Assembly: GCA_016871315.1 (NCBI GenBank)
Contig: VFZE01000014.1
Span: 1 to 64,000 of the forward strand
DNA from: Acidimicrobiia bacterium
GTDB lineage: Bacteria > Acidobacteriota > Terriglobia > Bryobacterales > Bryobacteraceae
Length of the DNA stretch: 64,000 nucleotides
Direction: 5' to 3'
Below are positions 45,939-49,881 of the stretch, in pieces (positions within the stretch are counted from its first letter, which is position 1; every line of letters begins with the position of its first letter). The position numbers and the translations under genes were made by a program. The notes beneath the pieces were generated by a model. That model searched no databases and had not been told where the DNA came from. It worked only from the letters and a program-made list of their open reading frames with translations.

Positions 45939-45999
45939 ACTGTTAACGGTGAACCTCCCAGAAGAAATAGTTTACAATTTTGCGGCATAGTTGCGCTAT

Positions 46000-46587
46000 A
46001 TGGCCCCACTGGTGATCCTGTTCGCGAAAGCTCCCGTCGCCGGGCGCGTGAAGACGCGGCTGGGGCTGGAGGCTTCGCGCGCGGCGCGTCTGCATGAGGC
46101 GATGGTGCGCGATACGCTGGCGATGCTGCGCGCGCTTGATGCGGAGCTGGAGCTGCACACCGATGTTGCTACAGACGCCTGGGCGGAGTTCGCCGTTCCG
46201 CGAAAGCTGCAAGCGGCGGGGGATCTGGGCGCGCGAATGCTGGCGGCGCTGGAGGCGGGCCGGCAGGTGATGATCGTGGGCAGCGATGCGCCGACGCTGC
46301 CGCTGGGGCACTTGGAGTGGTTGCTTGCGTTGAGCGCGGATGTGGCGCTGGGGCCGGCCGAGGACGGCGGCTACTATGCGATCTCGTGCCGGCGGATTCA
46401 CCAGCGGATGTTCGCAGGTGTGGAATGGTCGACGCGGCGGACGCTGGAGCAGACGGTGGCAGCGGCTGAGGCGTGCGGGTTGAGCGTGGAGTTGGGGCCG
46501 GTATGGTTTGATGTGGATTCACCGGAAGACTTGGCGAGGCTTTGCGCGGCGGGCTGGAGAGAGGGAGAATCTGAGATATGGGATTGA
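46000..46587 (+). CDS. TIGR04282/DUF2064 family glycosyltransferase
   Basis: A 195-residue protein of the DUF2064 GT-A-like family (cofC/GT-like nucleotidyl- or glycosyltransferases). VILFAKAPVAGRVKTRLG at the N-terminus is the nucleotide-binding signature, IVGSDAPTLPLGHLEWL contains the DxP metal motif, and LGPAEDGGYYAIS is the second diagnostic motif. The substrate is unknown. Start ATG 46000 is uncertain; TTG 45991 would add three residues. The last ten bases overlap the start of the bcp gene in another frame. Confidence 0.85.
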   Translation: MAPLVILFAKAPVAGRVKTRLGLEASRAARLHEAMVRDTLAMLRALDAELELHTDVATDAWAEFAVPRKLQAAGDLGARMLAALEAGRQVMIVGSDAPTLPLGHLEWLLALSADVALGPAEDGGYYAISCRRIHQRMFAGVEWSTRRTLEQTVAAAEACGLSVELGPVWFDVDSPEDLARLCAAGWREGESEIWD

Positions 46588-47033
46588 GATCAGGCGATAC
46601 GGCTCCGGAGATCGATGTGGGAACCGATAGCGGGGAGCCGTTCCGGCTGTCGGAGTTGCGCGGCTCCAAAGTGGTCTTATTCTTTTATCCGAAAGCGGAC
46701 ACGCCGGGTTGAACGAAGGAGGCCTGCGAGTTCCGGGATGAACTCGATTCGTTCAAGCAGAAAAAGACGGTGGTTGTCGGGATATCGGCGGACAAGCAGG
46801 CCGCGCAGGCGCGCTTCCGCGGCAAGCACGGTCTTCCCTACACGCTGCTCTGCGACACGGACCATAAGGTGGCCAAGGCGTACGGGGTTTGGAAGGAAAA
46901 GAAACTCTACGGCAGGAAGTACATGGGGACGGAGCGGACGACGTTCGTGATCGGGCCTGACGGAGTCGTTCAGGAGATCTTTTCGAAGGTGAAGCCGGCG
47001 GGCCATGCGGCCGAGGTTCTGGAGAAGCTGTAG
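46578..47033 (+). CDS. bcp: Bcp-type peroxiredoxin with in-frame TGA (probable selenocysteine) at the catalytic position
   Basis: A 151-residue peroxiredoxin of the BCP/PrxQ group, which reduces hydroperoxides with electrons from thioredoxin. The sequence is MGLRSGDTAPEIDV..., then VVLFFYPKADTPG, TGA, TKEACEFRD, then KKTVVVGISADKQAAQARF and RTTFVIGPDG. The TGA (46710-46712) falls exactly where the family has the peroxidatic Cys (TPGCT); the resolving Cys is at position 50. Reading frame and homology are continuous on both sides, with no frameshift, so a pseudogene is less likely. A stem-loop starts 15 bases after the TGA. No other selenocysteine machinery was recognised in this window. ATG overlaps the glycosyltransferase end; GGGAG lies upstream. 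Confidence 0.85.
46727..46746 (+). promoter_or_regulatory. Candidate bacterial SECIS hairpin of bcp
   Basis: CGAGTTC (46727-46733), loop CGGGAT, GAACTCG (46740-46746): seven perfect pairs with a six-base loop containing GG. The apical loop begins 22 bases after the TGA, within the spacing known for bacterial SECIS elements. It lies inside the coding sequence. Confidence 0.65.
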
Positions 47034-49421
47034 TTACTGGCGGAGTAGGGCGATGGTTGCACCTGCGCCGCCTTCTTCCGGTCCGGCTTCCTGAAAACTT
47101 TCGACGTGTGCGTGGCCTGAGAGCAGTTCCGCAACGGCGCGCTTGAGGATTCCCATGCCGTGGCCGTGCACGATGCGGACGCGGCCAACACCGGCCAGCA
47201 TTGCCTTGTCGAGGAACTTGTCGACTTCCCCGCACGCCTCTTCGGCGCGTTTGCCGATGATGTTGATTTCGCGTGTCAACACATTCCAGTCCGGACCCGC
47301 CTTGAGCGTGACGTTTTTCGGGAGGCGTGAGGGTGTGGCGGTCTCGGGCAGAACCTCGACGATATCGGCGCGCTCCACTTGCAGCTTCATGAAACCGGCC
47401 TCGACTTCGACGGCCTCTTCGCCGAGCAGACGGCGGACGGTTGCGGGCTGGCTGACGCCTTTCAGGCGCACGCGTGCGCCCTCCCGAATACTGAGCTGAG
47501 GCGGTTCGGGACGGCCGGCGGCGGTAATTTCGCGCTGGAACTCCTCCTTGAATTCGCGGCGTTCGCGGGCGGCCTTTTGGCGGGCGCGGGCGGAGGTTTC
47601 CAGCGCATCGATCGTCTCGCCGGCGCGCTTCTGAAACTCGGCCAGCAGCTTGTCGGCGCGTGTTTCCAACTCCTCGAGCTTGGCTTTCTCCCGCTTTTCC
47701 CAAAGCTGTTTCAGTCCGGCGCGCTCGGTTTCCAGGGCGGCCATTTCGGTGCTGAGTTCGCGCTCGCGGGCGGTCACCTCATCCAGGCGCTGCTCCATCA
47801 ACTGGAGAAAGCGAGCCAGGTCGCGCTGGGAGGAGGAGAGCGACTGGCGCGCCTTGTCGATCAAGGCAGAAGGAAGCCCCAAGCGGTGGGCGATGTCGAG
47901 TCCGGCGGAGGAGCCAGGAGCGCCGGTGCGCAGGTGATAGGTGGGCTCGAGCGTGGCTTCGTTGAAGCTCATGGAGCCGTTGAGGACGCCTTCGGTGTTT
48001 GCGCCGTAGATCTTGGGAGCGACCAGGTGGGTGGAGGCGAGCGTAAAGGCGCCCCAGCGACGGCAGTGATCGACGATGGCCACGCCCAGCGCTCCGCCTT
48101 CGTCGGGATCGGTGGCGCGGCCGAGCTCGTCGAGGAGAACGAGGGAATGCGGACCGGCCAGCTCCAGCATCTCCTTGACGCGGGCGATGTGGGCGGAGAA
48201 GGTGCTGAGGCTGTGCTCGATGGATTGGTTGTCGCCGATGTCGGCGAGCACCTGCTCAAACAGCGGCAGTTCGGCGACCTCGCACGGCACGGGCAGTGCA
48301 GACTGGGCCATGAGGGCAAACAGGCCGATGGTCTTCAGGGCGACGGTTTTGCCGCCGGTGTTGGGTCCGCTGATGAGGAGCGTGCGTGTGGAGGATTCGA
48401 GCGTCAGCGAGAGCGGCACGACGGACTTGCTCTGGCGGTGGAGGACGTCTTCAAGAAGCGGGTGACGGGCGCGGGCCAGAGCAAGGCGTGGGGAGTTCTC
48501 CGGGCTGAAGCGAGGGACGACACAGCGGAAATCGGCGGCGAAGCGGGCCTTGGCGAACAGGAAGTCGAGCAGCGCGAGCACTTCGCGGGCGATGGCGATT
48601 TCCGCTGCCGCTTCGCGGAGCTTCGAGGTCATTTCGGCCAGAATGCGGTGGACCTCGCGGAGCTCCTGTTCGCGCAGCCTGACCAGGTCGTTATTCAAGC
48701 CGACAGTTTCAAAAGGCTCGATGAATAGGGTGTGGCCGGTGCCGCTGGCGGCGTGGATGACGCCGTCGATCTTTTTTTTCTGGCCGGAGACGACGGGGAC
48801 GACGAAGCGCTCATTGCGGATAGTGACGAAATCTTCCTGCAGTACACCGTCGTCGCGGTGAGAGCGTAGGAAGCGTTCGAGCGACTCCTGAATGAGGCGT
48901 TGCTGTCGCTCCAGGTCCCGGCGGATGCGTCCGAGCGCGACGCTGGCATGATCTGCAACGGAGCCATCGGGCAGGATCTTTCCGGTGAGATCGTTCAGCA
49001 AGGGACGGAATTCCCCGATGCGGGAGGCATGGGCGCCGAGCAGAGGGTAACGCGTGGAGGCGGCGTTGAGAATAGAGCGGACGCCGGAGGCTCGATCGAG
49101 CAACCCGGTCAGATCGAGGATCTCTTTGCCTTCCAGCACGGCGCCTTCCATGCCCAGCTTGCCGGTGTGAGGAGTGACATCAGGCAGTCCATCGAAGCGG
49201 AGACGGATGGCTGCGCCGCGGGCGGCGGTCTGCGGTTCCAGGCAGGCCTGCCAGTAGGCGATCGCTTCGGTGGTTTCCCGGAGCGAGGCTTCGATGGCGG
49301 CGCGGTTGTCGTCCGGGTGCACGTCTTCGAGCAAGGTGTGGCCGGCGGGGCTGGAGAGGTAGCGGGCGATGAGCGACTTGAGTGGACCGAACTCCAGCAG
49401 CGAGGCGCTCCAGCGTTCCAT
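47034..49421 (-). CDS. mutS2: Endonuclease MutS2
   Basis: A 795-residue MutS2 protein, an ATPase with a C-terminal Smr nuclease domain, involved in suppressing recombination and in ribosome rescue. Walker A is LLISGPNTGGKTVALKT and Walker B SLVLLDELGRATDPDEG, with the STHL motif after it. A long coiled coil (about 510-620) separates this from the Smr domain, whose hallmark VRIVHGHGMGILKRAV is near 750. ATG 49421 starts at the usual MERWSASLLEFGPLK; an upstream in-frame extension has no support. It is the last gene of the five-gene operon from 53.4 kb, four bases after the Nudix gene. Confidence 0.95.
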   Translation of the reverse strand: MERWSASLLEFGPLKSLIARYLSSPAGHTLLEDVHPDDNRAAIEASLRETTEAIAYWQACLEPQTAARGAAIRLRFDGLPDVTPHTGKLGMEGAVLEGKEILDLTGLLDRASGVRSILNAASTRYPLLGAHASRIGEFRPLLNDLTGKILPDGSVADHASVALGRIRRDLERQQRLIQESLERFLRSHRDDGVLQEDFVTIRNERFVVPVVSGQKKKIDGVIHAASGTGHTLFIEPFETVGLNNDLVRLREQELREVHRILAEMTSKLREAAAEIAIAREVLALLDFLFAKARFAADFRCVVPRFSPENSPRLALARARHPLLEDVLHRQSKSVVPLSLTLESSTRTLLISGPNTGGKTVALKTIGLFALMAQSALPVPCEVAELPLFEQVLADIGDNQSIEHSLSTFSAHIARVKEMLELAGPHSLVLLDELGRATDPDEGGALGVAIVDHCRRWGAFTLASTHLVAPKIYGANTEGVLNGSMSFNEATLEPTYHLRTGAPGSSAGLDIAHRLGLPSALIDKARQSLSSSQRDLARFLQLMEQRLDEVTARERELSTEMAALETERAGLKQLWEKREKAKLEELETRADKLLAEFQKRAGETIDALETSARARQKAARERREFKEEFQREITAAGRPEPPQLSIREGARVRLKGVSQPATVRRLLGEEAVEVEAGFMKLQVERADIVEVLPETATPSRLPKNVTLKAGPDWNVLTREINIIGKRAEEACGEVDKFLDKAMLAGVGRVRIVHGHGMGILKRAVAELLSGHAHVESFQEAGPEEGGAGATIALLRQ

Positions 49422-49425
49422 CGGC

Positions 49426-49881
49426 TCAACCCTTGTTGTTGCGCTTGTCGAAGGCGCGCTCGATGACGGCAAGAGTGCCGTCGGTGAGCTTGTATCCGGC
49501 CAGTTCGCGACGCTTGACCCAGCGCACGTTGCTGGCATCGTCGGAAGCCTTCATTTCGCCGCCGGTGATCTTGCAGAGGTAATCGATCAACACGTAGTGG
49601 TATTCGGCCGCGCCGTTGTTGTCGCGCATGATGCGCTCGAAGATTTCGAAGACGGAGAGGGGCTTTACTTCGAGACCGGTCTCTTCGAGCACTTCGCGCC
49701 GGATGGCGTCGGAGAGCTGCTCGCCGGCTTCGAGCACGCCACCGGGCAGCGACCAGTAGCCCTTCAGCGGCTGCTTGCCGCGCTCGACCAGCAGGATGGA
49801 GCCGCGCTGAAAGATCAGCGCGCCGACGCCGAGGATGGGGCGCAGCGGGTAGCGGCGCGCGTCCTGATCGCGGCGGCTAAT
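49426..49881 (-). CDS. Nudix hydrolase, non-canonical start
   Basis: A 151-residue Nudix hydrolase (pyrophosphohydrolase, ADP-ribose or similar substrate). The Nudix box is GGVLEAGEQLSDAIRREVLEETG with all conserved residues. RPILGVGALIFQRGSILLVERGKQPLKGYWSLP is the normal N-terminal strand region. The first ATG, GTG or TTG in frame is a GTG (49737) inside the Nudix box, too late for a functional protein. Upstream the frame is open to an ATT (49881) that overlaps the SMP-30 stop codon and has AGGGAG nine bases before it, so I place the start there tentatively. It is translationally linked to SMP-30 and MutS2. Confidence 0.8.
   Translation of the reverse strand: MSRRDQDARRYPLRPILGVGALIFQRGSILLVERGKQPLKGYWSLPGGVLEAGEQLSDAIRREVLEETGLEVKPLSVFEIFERIMRDNNGAAEYHYVLIDYLCKITGGEMKASDDASNVRWVKRRELAGYKLTDGTLAVIERAFDKRNNKG

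Follow-up and report, generated by a model that had tools for sequence, protein, structure and literature searches.

The window (the whole stretch of DNA analysed, 64,000 nucleotides in length) contains a bcp/prxQ gene that very probably makes a Bcp/PrxQ-type thiol peroxidase with selenocysteine (Sec) as its peroxidatic residue. Codon 45 of this gene is an in-frame UGA, which would be decoded as Sec via a hairpin downstream of it, and a probability of about 0.96 is given to this reading. The genes of the Sec machinery are present in the genome, TGA recurs at the same codon in relatives of the gene, and comparison of the homologues reveals a stem found in Sec forms only. The original prediction of a selenoenzyme is supported by all three lines of evidence.

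The gene, its TGA codon and the Sec machinery

The features of the locus, with their positions in the window, are:

45991-46587, forward strand: upstream gene of the TIGR04282 glycosyltransferase family, which shares its last 10 bases with the start of bcp and has a normal TGA stop
46578-47033, forward strand: bcp/prxQ gene, predicted Sec peroxiredoxin, 151 codons with the TGA read through
46710-46712, forward strand: TGA, the predicted Sec45 at the peroxidatic position (P-x3-T-x2-U), from the translation and the comparison of homologue codons
46718-46754, forward strand: possible longer selenocysteine insertion element (SECIS) with a weak lower stem, -10.1 kcal/mol
46725-46727, forward strand: TGC, codon of the predicted resolving Cys50; the stem begins at its third base
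46727-46746, forward strand: predicted SECIS upper hairpin, stem 46727-46733 with 46740-46746, loop 46734-46739 (CGGGAU)
47034-49538, reverse strand: mutS2, convergent neighbour abutting bcp (TIGR01069, 721 bits)

The bcp frame is open from the ATG at 46578 to the TAG at 47033, with the exception of a single in-frame TGA at codon 45. In translation the context of this codon is YPKADTPG-U-TKEACEFRDEL. The residues P38, T42, U45 and C50 (P38-K-A-D-T42-P-G-U45-T-K-E-A-C50) conform to the P-x3-T-x2-C/U motif, and the predicted resolving cysteine, C50, lies five residues past U45, where most Bcp/PrxQ members have it. The read-through protein matches the AhpC-TSA family PF00578 over residues 6-133 (138.2 bits, cut-off 26; E 1.8e-40) and, over residues 3-150, the Bcp model of NCBIfam, NF006960 (152.9 bits, cut-off 140). 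Both matches span residue 45 and homology is therefore found on both sides of the TGA, in agreement with the original claim of a bcp frame open on either side of one TGA at 46710. It had also been claimed that standard gene callers would miss or split the gene. This holds for the mechanical list of open reading frames only (table 11, at least 60 aa), in which an 87-aa remnant at 46770-47033 is the sole product in the bcp frame.

The genome of the window, that of an acidobacterium, is an assembly of 166 contigs with a completeness of 98.34%. A search of it for selA, selB, selD and selC (tRNA-Sec) had been proposed, and all four were found. The match to selB scores 382 bits, above the cut-off, that to selA 485 bits and that to selD 353 bits. 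The best match to the tRNA-Sec model scores 69.5 bits (gathering score 47) and has the anticodon UCA. Two places in the genome lie above the gathering score, of which ARAGORN and Rfam assign the best to tRNA-Sec and the other to tRNA-Ser; the family search is not very specific, as 5 of 14 control genomes also exceed the score. The selD gene has its own in-frame TGA, within AHAKAAGUASKLS, and is predicted to encode a Sec-containing selenophosphate synthetase (L097, G000:C12:114032-114955).

One in-frame TGA is present in 4 of the 21 AhpC-TSA matches of the genome (bcp, L185, L189 and L190), positioned in each at the redox motif. L185 (G000:C5:142205-142579) is a second predicted Sec peroxiredoxin with the motif FTGGUTKEM, no cysteine at +5 and, as judged by eye, an apparent signal peptide. 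L189 (G000:C8:99955-100350) is an AhpC-TSA protein with a WUPYC motif and a long C-terminal extension, and L190 (G000:C27:24897-25283) is one with a WUPFC motif. The motifs of both resemble those of known UxxC Prx-like thiol:disulfide oxidoreductases. Distant redoxins (E of approximately 1e-12 to 1e-20) with exactly one in-frame TGA recur across 61 relatives, which suggests that these Acidobacteriota have several families of Sec redoxins. Other selenoproteins in the 64-kb window were sought by a coarse scan of codon composition, which reduced 361 TGA-interrupted frames to eight; by eye, these were taken for antisense frames or for adjacent genes that share a frame. The scan is no proof of absence, as the bcp gene itself was missed by it.

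Codon 45 and the downstream hairpin among homologues

Homologues were drawn from three sources: the best 80 of 426 contig loci, matches with E <= 1e-35 in 61 relatives, and matches at the same threshold in 116 of 297 genomes from the phylum. Removal of five duplicates from the 256 rows (L107, L110, L136, L184 and L280, where L107 is identical to L009 and L110 to L010 over the matched stretch) left 251. The distant Cys paralogues L175 and L187 passed a filter of E 1e-20 and are counted in the Cys rows. Across the 251 rows, window gene included, codon 45 is TGC in 178, TGT in 41 and TGA in 32, with no other codon recorded. The comparison of relatives at this codon, a check named at the outset, thus yielded 31 other homologues with TGA, 219 with TGC or TGT, and no random disruptions. 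Among the TGA rows are Acidobacteriota, Myxococcota (two Anaeromyxobacter included) and one Gemmatimonadaceae record.

The selA gene is present in all 15 TGA-form genomes tested, 7 of 7 among relatives of the window's family and 8 of 8 in a wider phylum set. This wider set consists of 35 genomes chosen by hand from the 116 (8 TGA forms and 27 Cys forms), and selA was found in 8 of its 27 Cys-form genomes. Within the window's own family selA occurs in 55 of 61 relatives, and its presence there does not separate Sec from Cys forms. Two full-length selA matches were seen in a single genome (G262). The only genome of the same genus that was searched (G001, 86% complete) contained no close Bcp copy, its best match having an E of 1.3e-17.

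The glycosyltransferase gene is located just before bcp in the Sec relatives L010, L024 and L164 and in the Cys relatives L009, L011, L111 and L115, many other loci being too short to hold it. This shared upstream gene places the Sec and Cys versions at one orthologous position. The Sec/Cys label changes nine times on the best quick tree of 156 rows and likewise on that of 251 rows; the starred branches of the 156-row tree force only two such changes. The quick tree, built from 251 short proteins, is poorly resolved and gives no direction of Sec/Cys change. For Prx, a 2006 survey infers five Cys-to-Sec events and no Sec-to-Cys event (PMC1794560).

The perfect 7-pair hairpin with a GG-containing loop that had been described 15 bases after the TGA was confirmed in both stem and loop (CGGGAU), with a minimum free energy (MFE) of -7.8. 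The published model of the bacterial SECIS (bSECIS) gives a loop of 3-9 nt, a stem of 4-16 bp, a spacing of 16-37 nt, a G in the first two loop positions and an MFE of at most -7.5 (PMC13188914). In the bacterial SECIS check that had been suggested for the locus, the hairpin of the window gene agrees with this model at every point, with a loop of 6 nt (C-G start), 7 bp, 21 nt from UGA to loop and -7.8. The model was applied in the author's own coding and is loose, as 80 of the 219 Cys forms pass it too. The lower stem of the possible longer element is drawn differently in other folds of the region, with no significant z.

By itself, the hairpin of the window gene is weak evidence. Its 20 bases, cut out post hoc, give a z of -2.33, with 7 of 200 shuffles as good, and longer stretches fold no better than shuffled sequence (46713-46755, z = -0.44; 60 bases from 46711, z = -0.87). 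Synonymous shuffles of the gene contained a model hairpin as good in 25 of 60 cases (13 of 40 in a separate set), and the same 7/7 stem was kept in 22,964 of 100,000. The stem often survives synonymous shuffling because the peptide nearly dictates it. The hairpin alone was consequently rejected as proof, and it becomes convincing through the comparison of homologues.

A run of at least 6 of the 7 window-stem pairs is found in 6 of the 32 Sec forms and in none of the 219 Cys forms. All 7 pairs are formed in the window gene, L018, L020, L035 and L067 (5/32), and L164 has 6. Two Cys forms reach a run of 5, and the nearest Cys relative, L009, has a run of only 1. Among the six Sec genes with the stem, 41 of 42 cells pair (97.6%; slid controls at most 47.6%), a figure that is partly by construction because the six were chosen for forming the stem. 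Paired changes on both sides occur in 3 of the 7 pairs, which 12 of 500 shuffles reach, and the covariation score is reached by 1 of 500, in a count based on only these six sequences selected as stem-forming. Two of the six, from Anaeromyxobacter terrae (L018) and A. soli (L020), have the 7-pair layout in common with the window gene at 56% identity, with compensatory changes in the stem.

A second, shorter hairpin layout, with the loop 17 nt after the UGA, has all 7 core pairs in 20/32 Sec forms and 5/219 Cys forms. The Bcp family uses two distinct hairpin layouts downstream of the one UGA; that this may be new to the literature is a weak claim. Hairpins in agreement with the bSECIS model occur in 27/32 Sec forms (synonymous control 42%), compared with 80/219 Cys forms (control 33%). 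The energy limit of the model is failed by five of the 32 Sec forms, namely L033, L164, L166, L172 and L173; L164 has a window-type stem at -5.5, and no hairpin of L033 agreed with the model.

The absence of the full stem from all 219 Cys forms speaks against a one-base error at 46710. Under a sequencing or assembly error, or a fresh mutation, an ordinary Cys gene would have had its TGC replaced by TGA; the division of the assembly into 166 contigs, together with the TGC of the nearest homologue (L009, 68% identity), could be taken in favour of this. However, four other TGA genes have the complete stem in common with the window gene where L009 has almost none of it, the same codon is TGA in 31 other homologues and the genome contains the Sec machinery, which leaves an error or fresh mutation very improbable. 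Translation of the UGA as Trp, or leakiness through an altered code or near-cognate read-through, would account for a frame that stays open past the TGA. This open frame is the only point in its favour, and the upstream gene stops normally at a TGA (46587). From knowledge of the family, an enzyme with Trp as its peroxidatic residue would be inactive. As tRNA-Sec and selB are present in the genome and the homologues have only Cys codons or TGA, decoding other than as Sec is extremely unlikely. A decaying pseudogene, to which the one in-frame stop might point, is hardly credible for 151 codons with no other disruption, a score of 152.9 bits to the Bcp model and a stop that falls exactly on the catalytic codon, as in the 31 other homologues.

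For the predicted selenoprotein, decoding, chemistry and reductant can be proposed from what is known of the family. UGA45 would be read as Sec by SelB and Sec-tRNA(Sec), aided by the hairpin that follows closely within the coding sequence. The selenolate would attack hydrogen peroxide or an organic peroxide to form a selenenic acid. Cys50 would then form a selenenylsulfide, to be reduced by thioredoxin.

The resolving cysteine

Cys50 is missing from 10 of the 32 Sec forms (7 Ser, 2 Asn and 1 His) and from 8 of the 219 Cys forms, a difference with a Fisher p of 6e-6 when kinship is ignored. The Sec forms without a cysteine at +5 are L024, L062, L069, L164, L165, L166, L167, L170, L172 and L173. 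No cysteine is found at any aligned position in L024, L062, L166, L167, L170, L172 and L173. The Cys forms without it (L240, L242, L249, L263, L269, L273, L278 and L282) have a KDNT/RDNT motif in common and probably represent a one-Cys Bcp clade. The statement that Cys50 is never lost in Cys forms, which had held on 156 rows (0/124), was abandoned at 8/219 on 251 rows.

On the 251-row tree, which is weak, there are 8 changes at Cys50 among Sec rows and 2 among Cys rows, equivalent to about 8 losses in Sec forms against 1-2 in Cys forms. By parsimony, Sec branches make up 9.4 of 69.9 length units and carry 8 of the 9 losses; a single regain falls among the Cys branches. The binomial p for losses on Sec branches is 8e-7, with the best topology of the weak tree taken as given. 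A stricter test of independent pairs, applied to the tree of 156 rows, found only two pairs on starred branches (median p 1) and thus lacked power.

It is tentatively proposed, at slightly under even odds, that a peroxidatic Sec makes the resolving cysteine less necessary, such that Sec forms repeatedly lose Cys50 and the SECIS overlapping its codon is rebuilt in at least two registers. The forms without Cys50 would then be one-Sec peroxidases whose selenenic acid has an external thiol as its direct reductant, in the manner of the Sec glutathione peroxidases. The window gene, with Cys50 still present, would be an intermediate state.

A somewhat doubtful alternative is that the codon is shaped by the SECIS stem and not by chemistry, and that this accounts for the loss of Cys50 in Sec forms. 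In the short-form hairpin, a change from TGC to TCC displaces the bulge by a single position, and the stem still has 7 or 8 pairs. The codon is TCC in 7/7 Ser forms, and six of these (L062, L069, L165, L167, L172 and L173) adopt the short-form stem with a shifted bulge; the fold of L170 is different. With the codon at the SECIS, the uniform TCC and the shifted-bulge folds indicate that RNA shape may help to choose Ser. However, Asn and His forms also exist (L164, L166 and L024), and Cys50 is kept in 22/32 Sec forms, most of them with a hairpin that agrees with the model, so that structure does not force the loss of Cys50. Loss of the resolving cysteine in Sec Bcp proteins was not mentioned in the literature searched, with most subscription journals outside that search. 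The pattern of loss at Cys50 may be new to the literature, a weak claim because of this limited coverage.

Relation to known selenoproteins and significance

As a Sec Bcp family is already listed, the window gene joins a known kind of selenoprotein. 'Peroxiredoxin (Prx)', COG1225 (Bcp), with the motif TxxU, is one of the listed selenoprotein families (PMC9312934), and the same Prx family appears in a further source (PMC13188914). The window protein shares with this family the domain, the P-x3-T-x2-U motif and the peroxidatic Sec, and differs in the organism. The 2006 survey records 12 Sec Prx in bacteria, lists three Sec peroxiredoxins for A. dehalogenans, and gives for Acidobacteria 3 selenoprotein families with 4 selenoproteins (PMC1794560). 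In a 2016 survey the number of Prx selenoproteins is 91 (PMC5029168). The TXXU site of an Anaeromyxobacter Prx is given in a figure legend (PMC1914089), and the deep-Sep paper includes Occallatibacter riparius (Acidobacteriota), with 3 known selenoprotein genes (PMC12013277).

Its score above the NF006960 cut-off likens the window protein to the thioredoxin-dependent thiol peroxidase Bcp/PrxQ. Matching PDB chains are 5enu (residues 18-149), 5iph and 3gkn (both residues 19-149). The chain of 5enu, for which an alignment was displayed, has a peroxidatic Cys and lacks one at +5. A peroxidatic Cys is the general rule among Bcp enzymes. PrxU of Eubacterium acidaminophilum is also a Sec peroxiredoxin, but of another Prx subfamily. 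Membership of PrxU was rejected for the window protein, which scores 40.3 bits (cut-off 270) against NF040737, the NCBI PrxU model that, by its name, presumably covers the E. acidaminophilum protein.

The finding corrects the annotation of a gene which an ordinary list of open reading frames cuts to its 87-aa remnant. It also adds a well-supported predicted Sec peroxiredoxin to a phylum for which the 2006 survey recorded few selenoproteins. The Sec and Cys versions beside the same upstream gene are close natural pairs for the question of what selenium buys the enzyme. These pairs also bear on whether the resolving cysteine becomes dispensable.
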